From Bulleidia sp. zg-1006 (GTDB taxonomy: Bacteria; Bacillota_I; Bacilli_A; Erysipelotrichales; Erysipelotrichaceae), in the NCBI RefSeq assembly GCF_016812035.1, contig NZ_CP069178.1, positions 372,001-436,000 on the forward strand: a DNA stretch of 64,000 nucleotides, written 5' to 3'. Shown piece after piece: positions 26,307 to 34,313 of the stretch. The position numbers and the translations under genes are program-made. Numbering within the stretch: position 1 is the first letter of the stretch; each line of letters opens with the position of its first letter. The notes beneath the pieces were generated by a model that worked only from the letters and a program-made list of their open reading frames with translations, was not told the DNA's origin and did no database searches.

Positions 26307-26736
26307 ACTTAAAGTCATTAATTATCTTCTAACAGCTTTCTTTGTGTTGTTAGCAGGTTGGTTGCTATATCTATTCAGTCAACAAAGCTTTAAAAAGCTA
26401 ATTGTATATGTTTTATTATCCGTTATAAATTTAGGTATTGTGACCTTGATTCGTAAAGTAGTGAATAAGAATCGACCGGAGAAAAATTTGCTAGATAAGC
26501 AGAAGCAAGGGGAAGCTTGGCCTTCTAGGCATAGCTACTCAGCTTTTTATGTCATCTTTTCTTCTTGGTTTATGTTTCCAACTTGGTTAAGTGTTTTTTT
26601 GTTTTTCCCGGCTATTTCTTTAGCTATTTTAAGAGTAAAATCCAAAGTGCATGATTATCGGGATATTTTATCCGGCATGAGCTTAGGCATAATCAGTGGT
26701 ATCCTTGTTGCTTATATTGTTCAAAAACTATTTTAA
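26299..26736 (+). CDS. PAP2-family membrane phosphatase
   Basis: A 145-residue integral membrane protein of the PAP2 superfamily, which includes undecaprenyl-pyrophosphate and lipid phosphatases. The three motifs are visible: RKVVNKNRP (about residue 52), PSRH (about 74, where PSGH is usual) and RVKSKVHDYRD (R-x5-H-x3-D, about 114). Four hydrophobic segments. The start overlaps murE by 8 nt, so a cell-wall lipid-carrier role is plausible but inferred from position. Confidence 0.78.
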   Translation: MNKLKVINYLLTAFFVLLAGWLLYLFSQQSFKKLIVYVLLSVINLGIVTLIRKVVNKNRPEKNLLDKQKQGEAWPSRHSYSAFYVIFSSWFMFPTWLSVFLFFPAISLAILRVKSKVHDYRDILSGMSLGIISGILVAYIVQKLF

Positions 26737-26788
26737 CCGTATAATAGAAAAGACGAGAAGAATAACGTCCAACAAAGAAGGAGAACAT

Positions 26789-28384
26789 ATGAATCCAGAA
26801 ATGGTGTATTTCTTTGTGGGATTAGTCGGTTTAGCAATCGGAATCGTCGTTATGTTAATCATGAATTCAGCAGGTCTTTCTAAATCGAAAGCCGAAGCTG
26901 AACAAATCGTAAAAGATGCTCAAAACAAAGCAGATAGTGTTTTAAAAGAGGCGACTTTAGAAGCAAAAGAAAAAGCATACGAAGTACAATTAACAGCGGA
27001 GAAGGAAGCTCAACGTAGACAAGAACAATTGATTCAACAAGAGAATAAATTGTTAAGAAAAGAGGATGCGTTGCGTTTTAAGGAGAATGAAGTTCAATCC
27101 AACCAAAGAAAATGGGAAGATAAGAATCGTTCAATCGATGATAAAATGGCTAATCTTCACAAAATGGAAGAGTCTTTACAGAAACAACAGCAATCTCTTC
27201 AAGTGAAACAAGAAACATTAAATCAAAAAATACAGGAACAATCTTCTTTATTAGAGAAGATGGCACAAATGAGCCAAGCTGACGCAAAAGCGGAATTGAT
27301 GGCAAAGGTTGAAAGCCAAAGTGAAAAAGAAATTGGTGCTTATTTGCGTGATAAATTAGAAGAGGCAGAGGATAATGCACAAGCGCAAGCTCGTAACATT
27401 ATCGCTAATGCTATTCATCGCTATTCACAAGAAGAAGTAATGGAAAGAACAGTTAGTACTGTTACGCTACCAAATGAAGAGATGAAAGGACGCATCATTG
27501 GTCGTGAAGGTCGTAATATCCGTGCGATTGAACAGGCAACAGGTGTTGATTTGATTATTGATGATACACCAGATGTGATTACTTTGTCTTGTTACAATCC
27601 AATTCGTCGTGAAGTGGCTCGTCAAGCTATGGAAATCTTATTGAAGGATGGGCGTATTCAACCGGGGCGTATTGAAGAAGTGGTTGAAAAAGTCCAAAGT
27701 GAAATGGAAAATAGTATCTTCAAGATTGGTAATGAAGCCGTTTATCGTCTTGGTATTGGTAAGATGAATCGTGAGTTGATTAAGTTGGTTGGTCGTTTGC
27801 GGTATCGTTATAGCTATGGTCAAAATGGTTTGCAGCATTCCGAAGAAGTGGCACGTTTTGCCGGTATGATGGCGGCTGAATTAGGCTTAAACCAGGTGTT
27901 AGCGAAAAGAGCTGGTCTATTGCACGATATTGGTAAGGCTTTAGACTTTGAACAAGAGGGAAGTCATGTCGAATTAGGAGCGAAAGTAGCTCGTAAATAT
28001 GGTGAACATGAAATTGTTGTGAATGCGATTGAATCACACCATGGAGATGTGGCACCAACCGATATTATTTCTGTGTTGGTTGCTGCCGCTGATACGATTA
28101 GTGCAGCTCGTCCGGGGGCTCGGTATGAATCGGTAGAAGGTTATATTACTCGCTTGGAAAATCTTGAAAAGATTGCGACCAGTTATAAAGGTGTTGAAAA
28201 AGCGTATGCGATTCAAGCCGGTCGTGAATTAAGAGTGATGGTTCAACCGGAAGTGGTGGATGATGTTGCGATGGTGAAAGTGGCTCATGATATCAAGGAT
28301 CAAATTGAAAAAGAATTAACTTATCCAGGTCAAATTAAAGTGACCTTGATTCGTGAAGTTCGTGCACAAGAATTAGCGAAATAG
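26789..28384 (+). CDS. rny: ribonuclease Y
   Basis: Membrane-bound endoribonuclease that starts mRNA decay. 531 residues: N-terminal membrane helix (MVYFFVGLVGLAIGIVVMLIM), a long coiled coil to about residue 210, a KH domain (GRIIGREGRNIRAIE, about 240) and an HD domain (LLHDIGKAL, about 375). ATG 26789 is preferred since AAGAAGGAGA lies 4 nt before it and the N-terminus then begins with the family membrane anchor; the frame is open further upstream. Confidence 0.96.
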   Translation: MNPEMVYFFVGLVGLAIGIVVMLIMNSAGLSKSKAEAEQIVKDAQNKADSVLKEATLEAKEKAYEVQLTAEKEAQRRQEQLIQQENKLLRKEDALRFKENEVQSNQRKWEDKNRSIDDKMANLHKMEESLQKQQQSLQVKQETLNQKIQEQSSLLEKMAQMSQADAKAELMAKVESQSEKEIGAYLRDKLEEAEDNAQAQARNIIANAIHRYSQEEVMERTVSTVTLPNEEMKGRIIGREGRNIRAIEQATGVDLIIDDTPDVITLSCYNPIRREVARQAMEILLKDGRIQPGRIEEVVEKVQSEMENSIFKIGNEAVYRLGIGKMNRELIKLVGRLRYRYSYGQNGLQHSEEVARFAGMMAAELGLNQVLAKRAGLLHDIGKALDFEQEGSHVELGAKVARKYGEHEIVVNAIESHHGDVAPTDIISVLVAAADTISAARPGARYESVEGYITRLENLEKIATSYKGVEKAYAIQAGRELRVMVQPEVVDDVAMVKVAHDIKDQIEKELTYPGQIKVTLIREVRAQELAK

Positions 28385-28402
28385 GGCTCGCCCCTATTTT
28401 TT
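28380..28402 (+). terminator. rny terminator
   Basis: AATAGGG (28380-28386) pairs with CCCTATT (28392-28398), followed by a T-run. The T-run merges directly with the extended -10 of the miaB promoter. Confidence 0.82.
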
Positions 28403-28410
28403 GTTATAAT
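28402..28410 (+). promoter_or_regulatory. extended -10 promoter of miaB (leaderless)
   Basis: TGTTATAAT at 28402-28410 is a perfect -10 with the TGn extension. The -35 position is poor. It ends 8 nt before the miaB ATG, so transcription is predicted to begin at or within 2 nt of the start codon. Confidence 0.6.
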
Positions 28411-28418
28411 GGTAGTCT

Positions 28419-29861
28419 ATGAAAAATAAAGATTATTTGATGCCGGATTTAAAGTTGGAAAAGAAAAGAAGTTTGAAAAAAGATAATGCGACCAACTATC
28501 GTGATTTTCAAATGAGTTTAGAAGCCAATCGCTTAGGACAAGATAAAAAATATTTTGTGAAAACCTATGGTTGCCAAGCCAATGTGCGAGATGGTGAATC
28601 ACTTTCGGGAATGCTAGAAATGATGGGATTTACGTATGCCGAAGTACCAGAAAAAGCGAATGTCATCCTCTTTAATACCTGTGCTATTCGTCGCGCCGCA
28701 GAAGAAAAAGTAATAGCGGAAATTGGTAATTTAAAGTATCTAAAAAGAGAAAAACCGGATACCATTTTTGCTCTTTGCGGTTGTATGGCTCAAGAAAAAG
28801 ATGTGGTGGAAGAATTGCTTCAGAAGCATCCACAAATAGATTTGATATTTGGTACCCATAACCTGTATCGCTTTCCTTCCCTTTTACAAGAAGTAATGCT
28901 TAAGAAAATCCAAAAGGTAGAGGTGTATTCTCAAGAAGGAGAAGTAGTGGAAGCTTTACCGGTGAAAAGATCCATGTCAGCAAAGGGTTTTGTAAATATT
29001 ATGTATGGCTGTGATAAATTTTGTACCTATTGCATTGTGCCTTATACTAGAGGGAAAGAACGTTCCCGTCGCATGAAAGATATCTTGGATGAAGTTTTAG
29101 ATTTGAAACAAAGTGGGCGAAAAGAAGTGGTTCTTTTAGGACAAAATGTGAACGCCTATGGCAAAGATTTACACATGGAAGATGGCTTTACAGATTTACT
29201 AAGAGCTGTCTCTGATACAGGAATTGAGCGCATTCGTTTTTATACTTCTCATCCTAGAGATTATCATTCTTCTTTAATTGATTTAATGGCGGAAAGAAAG
29301 AATATTATGCCTTTTCTACATTTCCCTGTTCAATCTGGTTCTAACGATGTCTTAAGAAGAATGGCACGTGGGTATACAGTTGAACATTATATTTCTTTAT
29401 ACAATGAAATGATTCAAAAGGTTCCTAATATCACTTTTACCACCGATATTATTGTTGGTTTCCCGGGAGAAAGTGAAGCGGATTTTGAAAAGACCATGAG
29501 CCTTGTGGAACATTGTCAATACGATATGGCTTATACTTTCTTATATTCAGCCAGGCTGGGAACACCGGCGGCTTCTATGCCGGATTTCATTTCAAAAGAA
29601 GTTAAAAAAGAACGCTTACAACGACTAAATCAACGTTTGCGTGATATAGCGGCGGAAAAGAATAAGACTTATTTGCACAAAGTGGTAAAAGTCTTATGTG
29701 AAGGTGCTTCTAAGAAAAATAATGAAATGTATGCCGGGTATACAGAAGATAATAAATTAGTGAATTTTTCTTGTTCTTGGAATTGTCTGGATGAAATTGT
29801 GGATGTTGAGATTACAGAAACACATTCTTATACCTTGAATGGAAGAGTGTTGGAAAAATAA
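28419..29861 (+). CDS. miaB: tRNA-2-methylthio-N6-dimethylallyladenosine synthase
   Basis: Radical-SAM methylthiotransferase acting on A37 of tRNAs. 480 residues: N-terminal UPF0004 domain with its three cluster cysteines (TYGCQANVRDGE; NTCAIR; CGCMAQE), radical-SAM CxxxCxxC in CDKFCTYC (about residue 200), and a C-terminal TRAM domain. An N-terminal extension of about 45 basic/polar residues precedes KKYFVKTYGCQ, as in Bacillus MiaB. No ribosome binding site is present; see the promoter entry. Confidence 0.95.
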   Translation: MKNKDYLMPDLKLEKKRSLKKDNATNYRDFQMSLEANRLGQDKKYFVKTYGCQANVRDGESLSGMLEMMGFTYAEVPEKANVILFNTCAIRRAAEEKVIAEIGNLKYLKREKPDTIFALCGCMAQEKDVVEELLQKHPQIDLIFGTHNLYRFPSLLQEVMLKKIQKVEVYSQEGEVVEALPVKRSMSAKGFVNIMYGCDKFCTYCIVPYTRGKERSRRMKDILDEVLDLKQSGRKEVVLLGQNVNAYGKDLHMEDGFTDLLRAVSDTGIERIRFYTSHPRDYHSSLIDLMAERKNIMPFLHFPVQSGSNDVLRRMARGYTVEHYISLYNEMIQKVPNITFTTDIIVGFPGESEADFEKTMSLVEHCQYDMAYTFLYSARLGTPAASMPDFISKEVKKERLQRLNQRLRDIAAEKNKTYLHKVVKVLCEGASKKNNEMYAGYTEDNKLVNFSCSWNCLDEIVDVEITETHSYTLNGRVLEK

Positions 29862-29909
29862 GGTTAGCTACTTTATAATAAAAAAGGAGAAGATTTTTTG
29901 GAGGAAAAT

Positions 29910-31583
29910 ATGAATAATATAGTGCGTTTATTTGCACTTGGAGGTCTTGATGAAGACGGCAAGAATCTCTATGTTGTAGAAAATAATAATGATATTTTTG
30001 TGATTGAGTGTGGTCTACGCTTTCCCTTGAATGGGGATAGCTTAGGTATTGAAATGATTGTTCCCGATGTAAGTTATCTGGTTGAAAATAAAGATCGAGT
30101 GAAAGGGGTTTTCTTAACCCATGGTCATGATGATGTGATGGGCGGTTTACTTTACCTTTTGAAACAAATACCGGATGCTCCTATCTATACCGCTCCTTTA
30201 ACAGCTTTAATGATTGAAAGAAAACTAAAGGAAGAAGGCATAGGTAAAATCAATCTGCATCGCATTCGTCGTAATGCGAAATTCAAAGTTGGTAATACGA
30301 ATATCCGTACTTTTGGAACCATGCAATCCATCGCTGATGGCTTCGGTTTAGCCATTCAAACGGCAGAAGGCTATGTGGTGTATAGCTCTGAATTTATTGT
30401 TGACTATGATACCCATATGCCAAGCTTTGTGTTCGATATTACAAATGTGACGGATTTGGCGAAAGAAGGTGTTTTAGCTCTACTTTGTGAATCCGTTGCT
30501 GCAACGCGGGAAGGAAATTCTACTCCCCACCATCGTTTAAGTAATGTCTTAGAACCAATTATTGAAGAAAGCGAAGGACGTATTTTAATTACTGTCTTTA
30601 ATCAAAATCTCTACCGCATTATTGAAATCATAGAGTTAGCGAATAAATACAATCGTCGTGTATTCCTATACGATGAAGGATTGAAGGCTATTATGGCTGA
30701 TATGGCTAAACTTGGTTACTATCATATTCCAGCCGGCTTAGAAGTGGTGCCATCCAAATTCCATAACGAAGAAGAAAATATGATTGTTTTAGTTGGTGGA
30801 ACAGGCGATTCTATTTTTCAAAAGGTACATCGCATTGCGAATAAAGAAGATTCTGTGATTGAATTAAAGAAGAGTGATACCGTTGTGATTGCTTCTCCGG
30901 CTGTGCCTGGTACCGAACGTCTTGAAGCTTCGATGGAAAATGATTTATACAAAGAAGCCAATCGTGTTTTAACCGTTGATGCCAAACGCAACTATTCCAT
31001 GCATGCTTCTATGGAAGATTTAAAGATGATGATTTATTTGATGAGTCCGAAATACTATGTACCCGTTAAGGGTGAATATCGTCAATTGATTGCGAATGCG
31101 AATATTGCTTTGGGCATGGGCTATCAAGCGGATAAGATTGTGGTTTTAGCCAATGGTCAAGTAGCAACTTTTAGAGATGGTGTTTTAGATCAGAAATACG
31201 ATAGCGTAAAAGCCGGTGATGTCATGGTGGATGGAAAAGATAGCCTGGACGCTAGTGGTATGGTCTTAAAGGATCGTGATATTTTAAGTACTGATGGTGT
31301 TATTGTGGTGGGAGTTGTGATGAATCACCATAATAAAGAAATCATTGGTGGACCAGATGTCCAAAGTCGTGGTGTGATTTATTTAAAAGATGCGGATTAC
31401 ATTGTAAAAGAAGTGGGAAATATCCTAGAAACCACCATCAATACCATGGTGAAAGAAAAGCGTTATGATAATCTTGAAGCGCGTTCGGAAGCAAGAGAAA
31501 AGATTGCTCGTTATTTGTTGAAAGAAACAGGTAAGAGACCAATGATTTTACCAGCTATCGTTGAAATAAATATTCAAGAATAG
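29910..31583 (+). CDS. rnjB: RNase J family protein, J2-like, metal ligands lost
   Basis: A 557-residue metallo-beta-lactamase/beta-CASP protein of the RNase J family, acting in mRNA decay and rRNA maturation in relatives. The ligand motifs are degraded: HGHDDVMGG replaces HGHEDHIGG (last His to Val); MQSIAD replaces NHSIPD (His to Gln); SSEF replaces TGDF; PVKGEYR replaces PVHGEYR. It should not bind two metals, so a structural partner role, as for B. subtilis RNase J2, is likely. It precedes ftsK, as rnjB precedes spoIIIE. Start: GGAGG 5 nt before ATG 29910; TATAAT at 29874-29879. Confidence 0.88.
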   Translation: MNNIVRLFALGGLDEDGKNLYVVENNNDIFVIECGLRFPLNGDSLGIEMIVPDVSYLVENKDRVKGVFLTHGHDDVMGGLLYLLKQIPDAPIYTAPLTALMIERKLKEEGIGKINLHRIRRNAKFKVGNTNIRTFGTMQSIADGFGLAIQTAEGYVVYSSEFIVDYDTHMPSFVFDITNVTDLAKEGVLALLCESVAATREGNSTPHHRLSNVLEPIIEESEGRILITVFNQNLYRIIEIIELANKYNRRVFLYDEGLKAIMADMAKLGYYHIPAGLEVVPSKFHNEEENMIVLVGGTGDSIFQKVHRIANKEDSVIELKKSDTVVIASPAVPGTERLEASMENDLYKEANRVLTVDAKRNYSMHASMEDLKMMIYLMSPKYYVPVKGEYRQLIANANIALGMGYQADKIVVLANGQVATFRDGVLDQKYDSVKAGDVMVDGKDSLDASGMVLKDRDILSTDGVIVVGVVMNHHNKEIIGGPDVQSRGVIYLKDADYIVKEVGNILETTINTMVKEKRYDNLEARSEAREKIARYLLKETGKRPMILPAIVEINIQE

Positions 31584-31591
31584 GAGTTATT

Positions 31592-33946
31592 GTGGCAAGA
31601 AAATCAAAAGCTCAACAAGAAAAAGAATTTAATGAACAAATCACTAAGGTCGTTTTAGTTCTTGTATTAGTGGTTCTTTTAACTGTGTCCATTATGAAGT
31701 TAGGATTAGTTGGTCTTTATTTAAATCATTTACTAATATATCTTTTTGGGACATGGTATTGGATGACTTTACTTTTAGGTATTCTTTATTTTATCTTGTC
31801 CATTTTAATTCGTAAAGGTTCCATTCAGCCAAAACGAATCTTTCCGTTAATACTGTTGATGCTGGCGACTTCTTTACTAGCCACTTATCTAGTAACAAAT
31901 GATAAGCTGATTGGTTTTTCCGTTTTCAAGCAATACCTATCACTAAGCAAGAGCTTCTTTAGTGATTTCCCATTAATGAAAGTTGGTGGTGGTCTTATTG
32001 GTTATTTCTTATATGGTGTTTTATCCACTTTATTTGCAAGATTAGGTTCTTTGTTGATATTTTTCTTACTTGTTGCGATTTCAATCTTGGTATGGACCGG
32101 AACGGATGTATACAAACGGGCTTTAAAGACCATTTATCACTTCTTTGAATTACCAGAGAAAGAAGAAGAGGAAGAAATTGAAGTTGAACCAAAAGAACCA
32201 GTTAATCTTTGGAAGATGATTGATGAACATAAGAGTGCAAAGATGAAAGATATTCGTGTGGATGAAGATCCGGAAATTACACAAGATATGGATATTTTAA
32301 CGGACTACCCTAATAAAACCGGCTTTGGCATCACCATAGATGATACGGAAGAATTAGAACCGGTCTATGATGAGGTTTATGAAGAAGAAAATTTTGTTCC
32401 GGAACCAGTTCAAGAGGAAATAGAATTTGAGGATATGGCTTTAAAGAAGCCTATTGCCAATCAAAATCTGGATCATTATAAATTACCAAGTCAATCTTTA
32501 TTGGACGCAATAGGGGGAAAAGATAAGAATTTTGAAAACATTCGTGCCGCGAAAGAAAAAGCGCAAGCTCTAATGGCTATTCTAAGAAACTTTGATATAG
32601 ACGCACAATTATTGGATACCCATATTGGTCCGGCGGTAACGCAATTTGAAATACGTCCCGATCCAAATGTGAAGGTATCTAAGATTTTAGGTTTGGCGGA
32701 TAATTTGAAGATGCAGATGGCGGCGAAAGATATTCGTATTGAAGCTCCAATTCCCGGTCGTAATGCGGTTGGGGTTGAAATTCCTAATGTGAAAAGTACA
32801 GTCGTTAAGATGAAAGAGTTACTTCGTGATCAACCAGAAGGAAATAAACCATTGATTTTTTTCTTGGGTAAGGATTTATTAGGTAATTCAGTTTATTGTA
32901 ACTTAGCGAAGATGCCTCACTTGTTGATTGCCGGGGCAACGGGATCAGGAAAGTCAGTTTGTATGAATACCATTATTACTTCTTATTTATTAAGAACAAG
33001 ACCGGATGAAGTGAAGCTACTTTTGATTGATCCAAAGAAGGTTGAATTTACACCATATCAAGAAATTCCCCATTTGATAGGACCGGTCATTAATGATCCA
33101 ACCAAAGCTGCCAATGCTTTAAAGGTTATGGTGGAAGAAATGGATCAACGGTATAACATTTTTGCGAATTTGGGTGTTCGTAAGCTGGAAGACTACAATG
33201 CCTTAGTGAAGAAACAGAGTGGACTTCCTAATCCAGATGGAACGCCAGCCTTAAATCCTTTACCATACGTTGTTGTGATTGTGGATGAATTAGCAGATTT
33301 AATGACGGTGGCTGGTAAGGATGTGGAATCTTCCATTATGCGTATTACCCAATTAGGTCGTGCGGCCGGTATTCATATGATTGTCGCCACCCAACGTCCA
33401 TCGGTAGATGTTATTACGGGAGTGATTAAAGCGAATATTCCTAGTCGTATCGCATTCTCAGTTTCTAGTGCGATTGATTCAAGGACGATTCTTGATCATC
33501 AAGGAGCAGAAAGGTTACTTGGAAATGGAGATATGTTGTATCTAGCCAATGGCTCTAATGCGATTCGTCGTGTACAAGGTATTTATGTGACGGATGAAGA
33601 AGTTCAGCGCATTACAAAAGCCTGTTCTAACCAAGCTGTACCAATGTATAACGATGCTTTCTTGCGTTTGGATATGGTTGAAAATGGTAGTGATGGTACT
33701 TTGATGAAAATGGAGGAAGATCCCTTATTCAAAGAAGTAACGGACTACGTCATTGATGCACAAAAGGCGTCTACTTCTTTATTGCAAAGAAGATTTGGAA
33801 TTGGCTATAATCGAGCAGCGAGAATGATTGATGTTTTAGAAGATCATGGCATTATTGGTCCATCTCGTGGTTCTAAACCAAGAGAGGTCTTGCGTAAAAA
33901 GGAAGCTGAAACAAATCGGACTGAAACGGGAGGAATCCGTGAATAA
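31592..33946 (+). CDS. ftsK: DNA translocase FtsK/SpoIIIE
   Basis: Septum-anchored motor that moves chromosome ends during division. 784 residues: four N-terminal membrane segments (residues about 15-190), a Glu-rich linker (190-290), motor domain with Walker A GATGSGKSV (about residue 450) and Walker B VVVIVDELADL, then a C-terminal gamma winged helix (STSLLQRRFGIGYNRAARMIDVLE). GTG start with GGAGTT upstream, 8 nt after rnjB. Confidence 0.96.
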   Translation: MARKSKAQQEKEFNEQITKVVLVLVLVVLLTVSIMKLGLVGLYLNHLLIYLFGTWYWMTLLLGILYFILSILIRKGSIQPKRIFPLILLMLATSLLATYLVTNDKLIGFSVFKQYLSLSKSFFSDFPLMKVGGGLIGYFLYGVLSTLFARLGSLLIFFLLVAISILVWTGTDVYKRALKTIYHFFELPEKEEEEEIEVEPKEPVNLWKMIDEHKSAKMKDIRVDEDPEITQDMDILTDYPNKTGFGITIDDTEELEPVYDEVYEEENFVPEPVQEEIEFEDMALKKPIANQNLDHYKLPSQSLLDAIGGKDKNFENIRAAKEKAQALMAILRNFDIDAQLLDTHIGPAVTQFEIRPDPNVKVSKILGLADNLKMQMAAKDIRIEAPIPGRNAVGVEIPNVKSTVVKMKELLRDQPEGNKPLIFFLGKDLLGNSVYCNLAKMPHLLIAGATGSGKSVCMNTIITSYLLRTRPDEVKLLLIDPKKVEFTPYQEIPHLIGPVINDPTKAANALKVMVEEMDQRYNIFANLGVRKLEDYNALVKKQSGLPNPDGTPALNPLPYVVVIVDELADLMTVAGKDVESSIMRITQLGRAAGIHMIVATQRPSVDVITGVIKANIPSRIAFSVSSAIDSRTILDHQGAERLLGNGDMLYLANGSNAIRRVQGIYVTDEEVQRITKACSNQAVPMYNDAFLRLDMVENGSDGTLMKMEEDPLFKEVTDYVIDAQKASTSLLQRRFGIGYNRAARMIDVLEDHGIIGPSRGSKPREVLRKKEAETNRTETGGIRE

Positions 33947-33958
33947 GCGGATTTCTTT
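33934..33958 (+). terminator. terminator after ftsK
   Basis: AATCCG and CGGATT flank the ftsK stop codon as a short stem with an 8-nt loop, followed by a T-rich run. Confidence 0.65.
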
Positions 33959-34042
33959 TTTCTTTTGGAAGTGTTTGGCTTGATGGTCTTTTGTCTTTTT
34001 GGTATAAAATAATTGGTTAAAACAAACTGGAAAGAGGGTTGT

Positions 34043-34252
34043 ATGAGCGCAAGTGACGGCATTGTGATTCTAGTGATTGGGGCTTTAGTGGCTTGGAATA
34101 TTCGCTATGTGATAAAAAATGGTGTGGATTCTTGCAGTGGTGATTGCAATGGTGCTTGTAAGGGACACTGTAAATGGGTTGGTGATGTAGCGAAAGCACG
34201 TCGTCACATTTCTCGTATCAATAAAATTAAAGCTTTCTTCCATTTGACCTAA
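34043..34252 (+). CDS. small Cys-rich membrane protein
   Basis: 69 residues: one N-terminal membrane helix (GIVILVIGALVAWNIRYVI), then a cysteine cluster CSGDCNGACKGHC (four Cys with one His) and a basic tail. This layout resembles FeoB-associated Cys-rich membrane proteins (P12 family), which bind metal or may form clusters, but no feo gene is in the window, so that is only a resemblance. Start ATG 34043 has AAGAGGG upstream; a promoter-like TATAAA lies near 34003. A short terminator follows at 34246-34266. Confidence 0.65.
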   Translation: MSASDGIVILVIGALVAWNIRYVIKNGVDSCSGDCNGACKGHCKWVGDVAKARRHISRINKIKAFFHLT

Positions 34253-34266
34253 GAAGGTCTTTTTTT
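34246..34266 (+). terminator. terminator after Cys-rich membrane protein
   Basis: A 5-bp stem (GACCT with AGGTC) and a run of seven T residues, overlapping the stop codon. Confidence 0.65.
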
Positions 34267-34313
34267 GTGGATTTTTGATTATTTTGGTAATAAGGGAGTA
34301 CAGGAGAAAAACT

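Follow-up and report, generated by a model that had tools for sequence, protein, structure and literature searches.

An RNase J2 gene with a rebuilt metal centre next to ftsK in Bulleidia sp. zg-1006

The window analysed here is a stretch of 64,000 nucleotides of Bulleidia sp. zg-1006 (contig NZ_CP069178.1, positions 372,001 to 436,000), whose genome is assembled as one 1.545-Mb contig. At 29910-31583, on the forward strand, lies a complete open reading frame that begins with ATG at 29910, ends with a stop at 31583 and encodes 557 amino acids; a probable ribosome-binding site, GGAGG, precedes it at 29900-29904 (+). The neighbourhood scan placed it in the gene order rny, miaB, rnjB, ftsK, with rny (RNase Y) at 26786-28384 (+), miaB at 28419-29861 (+) and a gene for an FtsK/SpoIIIE-type DNA translocase, a conserved neighbour of rnjB, at 31592-33946 (+), the successive gaps being 34, 48 and 8 bp. 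Two proposed degradosome parts, RNase Y and RNase J2, are therefore encoded in the same cluster (26786-33946). The four genes may not form a single transcript, since a terminator-like hairpin of 9 pairs, followed by a T-rich tract, is found between rny and miaB at 28378-28400. A promoter scan of 26500-34300 returned 26 sites, where shuffled sequence would give 23.9; because the count is so near to that expectation, a TTGGAA-18-TATAAT match at 29850-29879 is not taken as evidence of a promoter.

The product belongs to the RNase J family. It scored 437.8 bits with TIGR00649, above the curated cut-off of 400, and its metallo-beta-lactamase (PF00753), beta-CASP (PF22505), RMMBL (PF07521) and RNase J C-terminal (PF17770) domains all exceeded the Pfam cut-offs, in agreement with the original prediction, made from the bare sequence, of an RNase J paralogue of good length and overall sequence. 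The curated RnjA model NF047419 (cut-off 820 bits) gave 421.6 bits for the window protein, about half the cut-off, versus 702 for the J2 of B. velezensis and 832 for the second RNase J of the same genome, which passes. These are the only two RNase J genes in the genome at E <= 0.001. The second one (L001) carries all seven metal ligands and is the intact rnjA that the original prediction had proposed to look for; it shares 29% identity with the window protein over 552 alignment columns. The J2 of the nearest named relative, Bulleidia extructa W1219, is 93% identical to the window protein, and the best sequence match in the PDB is RNase J2 of S. epidermidis (3.2e-103).

A tree was built from 111 rows, 106 of them hand-picked from 283 distinct sequences and five being outgroup proteins, after removal of the ten scored columns (IQ-TREE quick, LG+C20, with SH-aLRT and no bootstraps); the partial open reading frames L207 and L280 had been dropped before the 283-row alignment. 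The tree has a 90-row J2 clade (SH-aLRT 99), which includes the annotated rnjB product of B. velezensis as well as Listeria and Cytobacillus proteins, while the 21 rows outside it, J1s and outgroups, all have the seven ligands intact. The place of the window protein in this clade, the ftsK gene downstream and the intact rnjA elsewhere in the genome identify the gene as rnjB, encoding an RNase J2 orthologue, and the profile scores and the fold described below are in line with this. A misassigned J1 is ruled out by the RnjA score below the cut-off and by the position in the J2 clade.

Residues are numbered here as in RNase J1, and replacements were identified by comparison with the J1 encoded elsewhere in this genome and with an alignment of J1s and outgroups (MAFFT). 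In RNase J, metal site one is formed by D78, H79, D164 and H390, and site two by H74, H76, H142 and D164 (PMC7864078). Alignment and translation indicate that four of these seven ligands are replaced in the window protein, one in each motif (coordinates on the forward strand): H79 by Val within the motif HGHDDVMGG (30120-30146), which keeps H74, H76 and D78; H142, a ligand of the H74/H76 site, by Gln (codon CAA, 30324-30326); the bridging D164 by Glu (codon GAA, 30390-30392); and H390 by Lys (codon AAG, 31068-31070). In the numbering of the protein itself the replaced ligands are V76, Q139, E161 and K387, and the conserved ones H71, H73 and D75. The changes reach both sites, replacing three of the four ligands of site one and two of the four of site two. 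The four altered motifs named in the original prediction (HGHDDVMGG, MQSIAD, SSEF and PVKGEYR) are all present, and its statement that every metal-binding motif is changed is right in that each of the four has one ligand replaced, but three of the seven ligands survive and D164E is a conservative exchange. The protein falls outside the class of catalytic two-metal RNase J enzymes, in which H74, H76, D78, H79, H142, D164 and H390 are all found, and also outside that of a one-metal RNase J2 with H74, H76, H142 and Asp/Glu164, residue 142 being Gln. The beta-CASP phosphate motif, RNYSMHAS (30987-31010, +), has Asn instead of H364 (N361) and Met instead of G367 (M364), while S366 and H368 are unchanged; its placement is the one on which MAFFT and the phmmer alignment to S. 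epidermidis J2 concur, and the BLAST alignment has a gap nearby. The same four ligand replacements are present in the J2 of B. extructa W1219 (L033), and this recurrence, along with the Gln142 shared by all 21 members of the genus, argues against sequencing error or chance.

The distribution of these changes was followed in the order, where J2 was scored in 144 of the 148 genomes searched (G023, G071, G039 and G060 were outside the count). The J2 label was given to the best match to the window protein having no intact signature, and the tree made without the scored columns served as an independent check. H79 was replaced in all 144 genomes (by Val in 124) and so was D164 (141 Glu, 3 Gln), while H390 was replaced in 136 (131 Lys) and H142 in 53 (47 Gln), being kept in the other 91. 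H74, H76 and D78 were conserved in 141, 142 and 144 genomes, respectively. Within the phosphate motif, H368 was kept in 144/144 and S366 in 127/144, and residue 367 was Met in 139/144. Most J2 proteins had three (88) or four (50) ligands replaced, with two replaced in 4 and five in 2. H76 was also lost in the relatives G016 and G026. Three J2 sequences (L106, L065 and L067) have Asn at position 76 on top of the four positions changed in the window protein, leaving two of the seven ligands, and in L106 and L065 residue 142 is Glu. In other genera the remaining metal site is altered at a different ligand, H74 itself being Gln in L112, L113 and L163.

A place for J2 was listed in 146 of the 148 genomes. 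The other two (G039 and G060) are not counted as members of the family that lack RNase J, given that matches to RNase Y and FtsK were absent from them as well. Two draft genomes (G145 and G021) have J2 and gave no match for J1; as the assemblies are drafts, J1 may merely fall in a gap, and if its absence were real it would count against a J2 that depends on J1. The J2 of G071 is split over two overlapping reading frames (L207), and the J1s of G071 and G106 are likewise each in two overlapping frames; these are single-contig assemblies, and frameshift errors are the probable cause.

H79 and/or H390 were lost in all 90 rows of the J2 clade. The minimum number of kept/lost changes on the tree was 4 for H79, 6 for H390, 4 for D164 and 5 for H142, with an inner branching that is to be read loosely because the tree comes from a quick run with no bootstraps and has long J2 branches. 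The 56 J1-type rows have 136 columns with an identity of 97% or more; in 174 J2 rows of the order, 39 of these columns were kept and 84 relaxed, and the other 13 had switched to a different residue that is at least 90% fixed, D164E, G367M and H390K among them. Omega between G000 and G043 was 0.022 for J1 and 0.030 for J2, rough values given a dS of 1.4-1.5; in the less saturated pair G112/G136 it was 0.015 for J1 and 0.009 for J2, and the J2 values of the five pairs with computable dS ranged from 0.009 to 0.094. Protein distances among J2s had a median of 1.37 times those among J1s (21 genomes). Because the altered residues (E164, K390, M367) are nearly fixed across the order and dN/dS, around 0.03, is close to that of J1, the term "degraded" used in the original prediction does not apply: J2 of this order is not decaying, and the rebuilding of its metal centre took place under purifying selection. 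A pseudogene or sequencing error is ruled out by the identical set in B. extructa W1219, the low omega and the order-wide fixation.

The AlphaFold2 model, obtained with 64 J2 sequences, had a mean pLDDT of 91.0 and a pTM of 0.77, with the C-terminal domain formed and low values at residues 444-451. The top Foldseek match was chain A of 9a5v, by its title an integrative RNJ2-RNJ1 model; a passage on RNJ2-RNJ1 was looked for in PMC11383924 and was not found. VIA-align ranked chains of the S. epidermidis J2 first (8yyk_C, with Z 49.7 and 2.1 A over 430 residues), and the J1 chain 6k6s_B was matched with Z 46.8; INTS9-INTS11 and CPSF73 entries were also among the fold matches. Residues reported to contact RNA in RNase J of S. 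coelicolor are F52, R267, which sandwiches the RNA, and Q311 (PMC4652760). With the numbering carried over through a Streptomyces homologue and not S. coelicolor itself, F52 is kept in the window protein, R267 corresponds to Glu256 and Q311 to Gly; in the order, 23 of 63 J2 rows have Arg or Lys at the position of R267 and none has Gln311. For J1, a contact of H368 with the 5'-terminal nucleotide has been proposed (PMC7864078), and the conservation of H368 and S366 in the J2 sequences suggests that some contact with RNA or phosphate may still be under selection.

In the order, 180 J2 loci have 900 or more bases of sequence after the gene, a set that includes some repeated places (e.g., L002 and L080); 178 of them have an ftsK gene downstream in the same orientation, versus none of 30 J1 loci. 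Among the named relatives (L033-L078), 40 of 42 have miaB upstream, and 34 of the 38 with enough flank have RNase Y there. The position before ftsK had been likened in the original prediction to that of rnjB in B. subtilis; ftsK does follow at 8 bp here, although in B. velezensis the order is dapA, rnjB, two further genes and then ftsK. Outside the Bacillota, rnj lies directly before ftsK in Collinsella (L312) and dapA lies just before rnj in Streptomyces (L307), and the rnjA of the window genome adjoins def, while the rnjA of S. aureus has a deformylase gene in its vicinity. Since rnj is found beside ftsK or dapA in Actinomycetota too, we infer that rnjB might stand at the original place of the RNase J gene, with rnjA as a moved copy that kept catalysis; the other surroundings of rnj in Vescimonas, Monoglobus and one Arthrobacter record speak against this idea.

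Taken together, we consider it probable (roughly 0.8) that the RNase J2 of the window is a non-catalytic, or nearly non-catalytic, partner of RNase J1 in a heteromer, encoded by an rnjB gene whose metal centre has been rebuilt. According to this reading J2 would no longer be an RNase J exonuclease, or would keep only trace activity; J1 would supply the active site, and J2 the dimer and tetramer surfaces that J1 needs in the J1/J2 heteromer. The D78/H79/D164/H390 site is broken across the whole order and, in the subclade of the window, the second site (H74/H76/H142/D164) is weakened too by H142Q, to at most a site of two His and one Glu. The role of structural or regulatory subunit put forward in the original prediction is the best-supported one, with a precedent in S. 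aureus (PMC3937233), with the qualification that H74, H76, D78 and E164 remain and one metal could still be held there. Besides the conserved H368 and S366, two reports temper this reading: an altered J2 site need not be dead, given the weak activity of the J2 proteins of E. faecalis (PMC5383250) and S. epidermidis (PMC7864078), and a tight J1/J2 complex is not a given, as J2 of S. epidermidis is mostly monomeric and binds J1 weakly (PMC7864078).

How much of the metal centre still functions separates the narrower readings. A tentative one, to which we give somewhat less than even odds, is that in the Bulleidia/Solobacterium-type subclade J2 has become a metal-free pseudonuclease, an inactive but obligate subunit that RNase J1 needs in order to function. 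The H79/H390 site would have been broken in J2s generally and the last site lost later through H142Q, and H76N in some relatives, so that V79, E164, M367 and K390 would now form a fixed metal-free core. A K390-E164 salt bridge perhaps replaces the metals in it, which is only a guess, since the 9 independent pairs found on starred branches support a K390/E164 coupling neither way. It seems rather unlikely that J2 is a single-metal enzyme, slowly cutting a set of RNA targets of its own as an endonuclease, with the metal on H74, H76 and E164 and the help of Gln142 or water. The near-universal retention of H74, H76 and D78 and the presence of H142 in 91 of the 144 genomes fit such an enzyme, as do the single Mn and weak endonuclease activity of S. 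epidermidis J2 (PMC7864078) and the dependence of E. faecalis J2 activity on the equivalents of H74 and H76 (PMC5383250). Against it, H142, a ligand of that very metal, is lost throughout the genus of the window, two relatives are also devoid of H76, and the RNA-sandwiching Arg and Gln311 are replaced in the window protein.

The complete conservation of H368, with S366 kept in most genomes, could also be accounted for if J2 bound RNA 5' ends through the S366/H368 pocket and passed them to J1 or shielded them from it, a role for which the contact proposed for H368 in J1 offers a basis (PMC7864078). We regard it as improbable, as the adjacent H364 and G367 are replaced, the latter by Met in nearly all genomes, and the equivalents of R267 and Q311 are lost. 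Least credible of all is that rnjB is a dispensable paralogue heading for loss. The larger protein distances of J2 and the stepwise loss of ligands on the tree would be expected of it, and it is strongly disfavoured by the low omega in all five pairs, by the presence of a J2 place in all genomes except the two in which ftsK and RNase Y matches are missing too, and by replacements that are fixed and not random. The reading of J2 as a (nearly) inactive partner of J1 accommodates these observations best.

Ligand loss in J2 as such is general, as seen in 90/90 proteins of the J2 clade, and the lack of conservation of second-site residues in J2s is already in print (PMC5383250). What is new here is its extent, i.e. 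the V79/E164/M367/K390 architecture fixed across the order and, in one subclade, a further change at the last metal site; neither this fixed pattern nor the loss of H142 was seen in the published sources covered, mostly listings and abstracts. Searches of the open-licence PMC literature found nothing on RNase J in Erysipelotrichaceae or on an rnjB-ftsK operon, and nothing relevant on RNase J as a pseudoenzyme, where a single unrelated paper was returned. The data suggest that a broken H79/H390 site is common to J2s in general, though produced by differing substitutions, and that one branch also damaged the remaining site. This branch, which lost H142, offers a natural way to ask if J2 depends on a metal or on catalysis at all, a matter that bears on why many Bacillota retain two RNase J genes. 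If the metal-free reading were true, it would provide a bacterial counterpart of CPSF100/INTS9 that evolved stepwise along a traceable tree.

In eukaryotes, CPSF100 and INTS9 are the inactive partners of CPSF73 and INTS11, proteins of the same metallo-beta-lactamase/beta-CASP superfamily, and this pairing of an active with an inactive subunit is a design similar to that of J1 and J2. Nonetheless, they are not orthologous to RNase J2, they are not known to carry the RNase J C-terminal domain and their origin is separate. Closer to the window protein is RnjB of S. epidermidis (PDB 6K6W/8YYK), its best fold match, which has also lost H79 and H390, carries D164E and keeps H74 and H76. It differs in having D78H and H79A and in retaining H142 and one Mn (PMC7864078), whereas in the window protein D78 is intact, residues 79 and 390 are Val and Lys, and H142 is gone. 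Weak endo- and exonuclease activities of this J2 were seen only at high protein concentration, and it was proposed to act as a slow single-metal endonuclease; the structure paper left open whether other J2 paralogues have a one-metal site (PMC7864078). J2 of E. faecalis is a weak but active exonuclease, and pilus expression in vivo depends on this activity; its mutants without the equivalent of H74 or H76 still bind J1 (KD 81-89 nM, versus 74 nM) (PMC5383250). In S. aureus, changing the two first-motif His of J2 to Ala allowed wild-type growth, whereas the deletion caused a strong growth defect, and its authors proposed a mainly structural role (PMC3937233). The RnjB of B. velezensis belongs to the same clade as the window protein and its gene is also near ftsK/spoIIIE, yet its signature is H74 H76 E78 N79 H142 D164 N390, and dapA takes the upstream place that miaB and rny have in the window, where ftsK comes directly next. 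RNase J1 (RnjA), in turn, shares family and domain order with the window protein and differs from it in keeping all seven ligands, as all rows of the J1 clade do.
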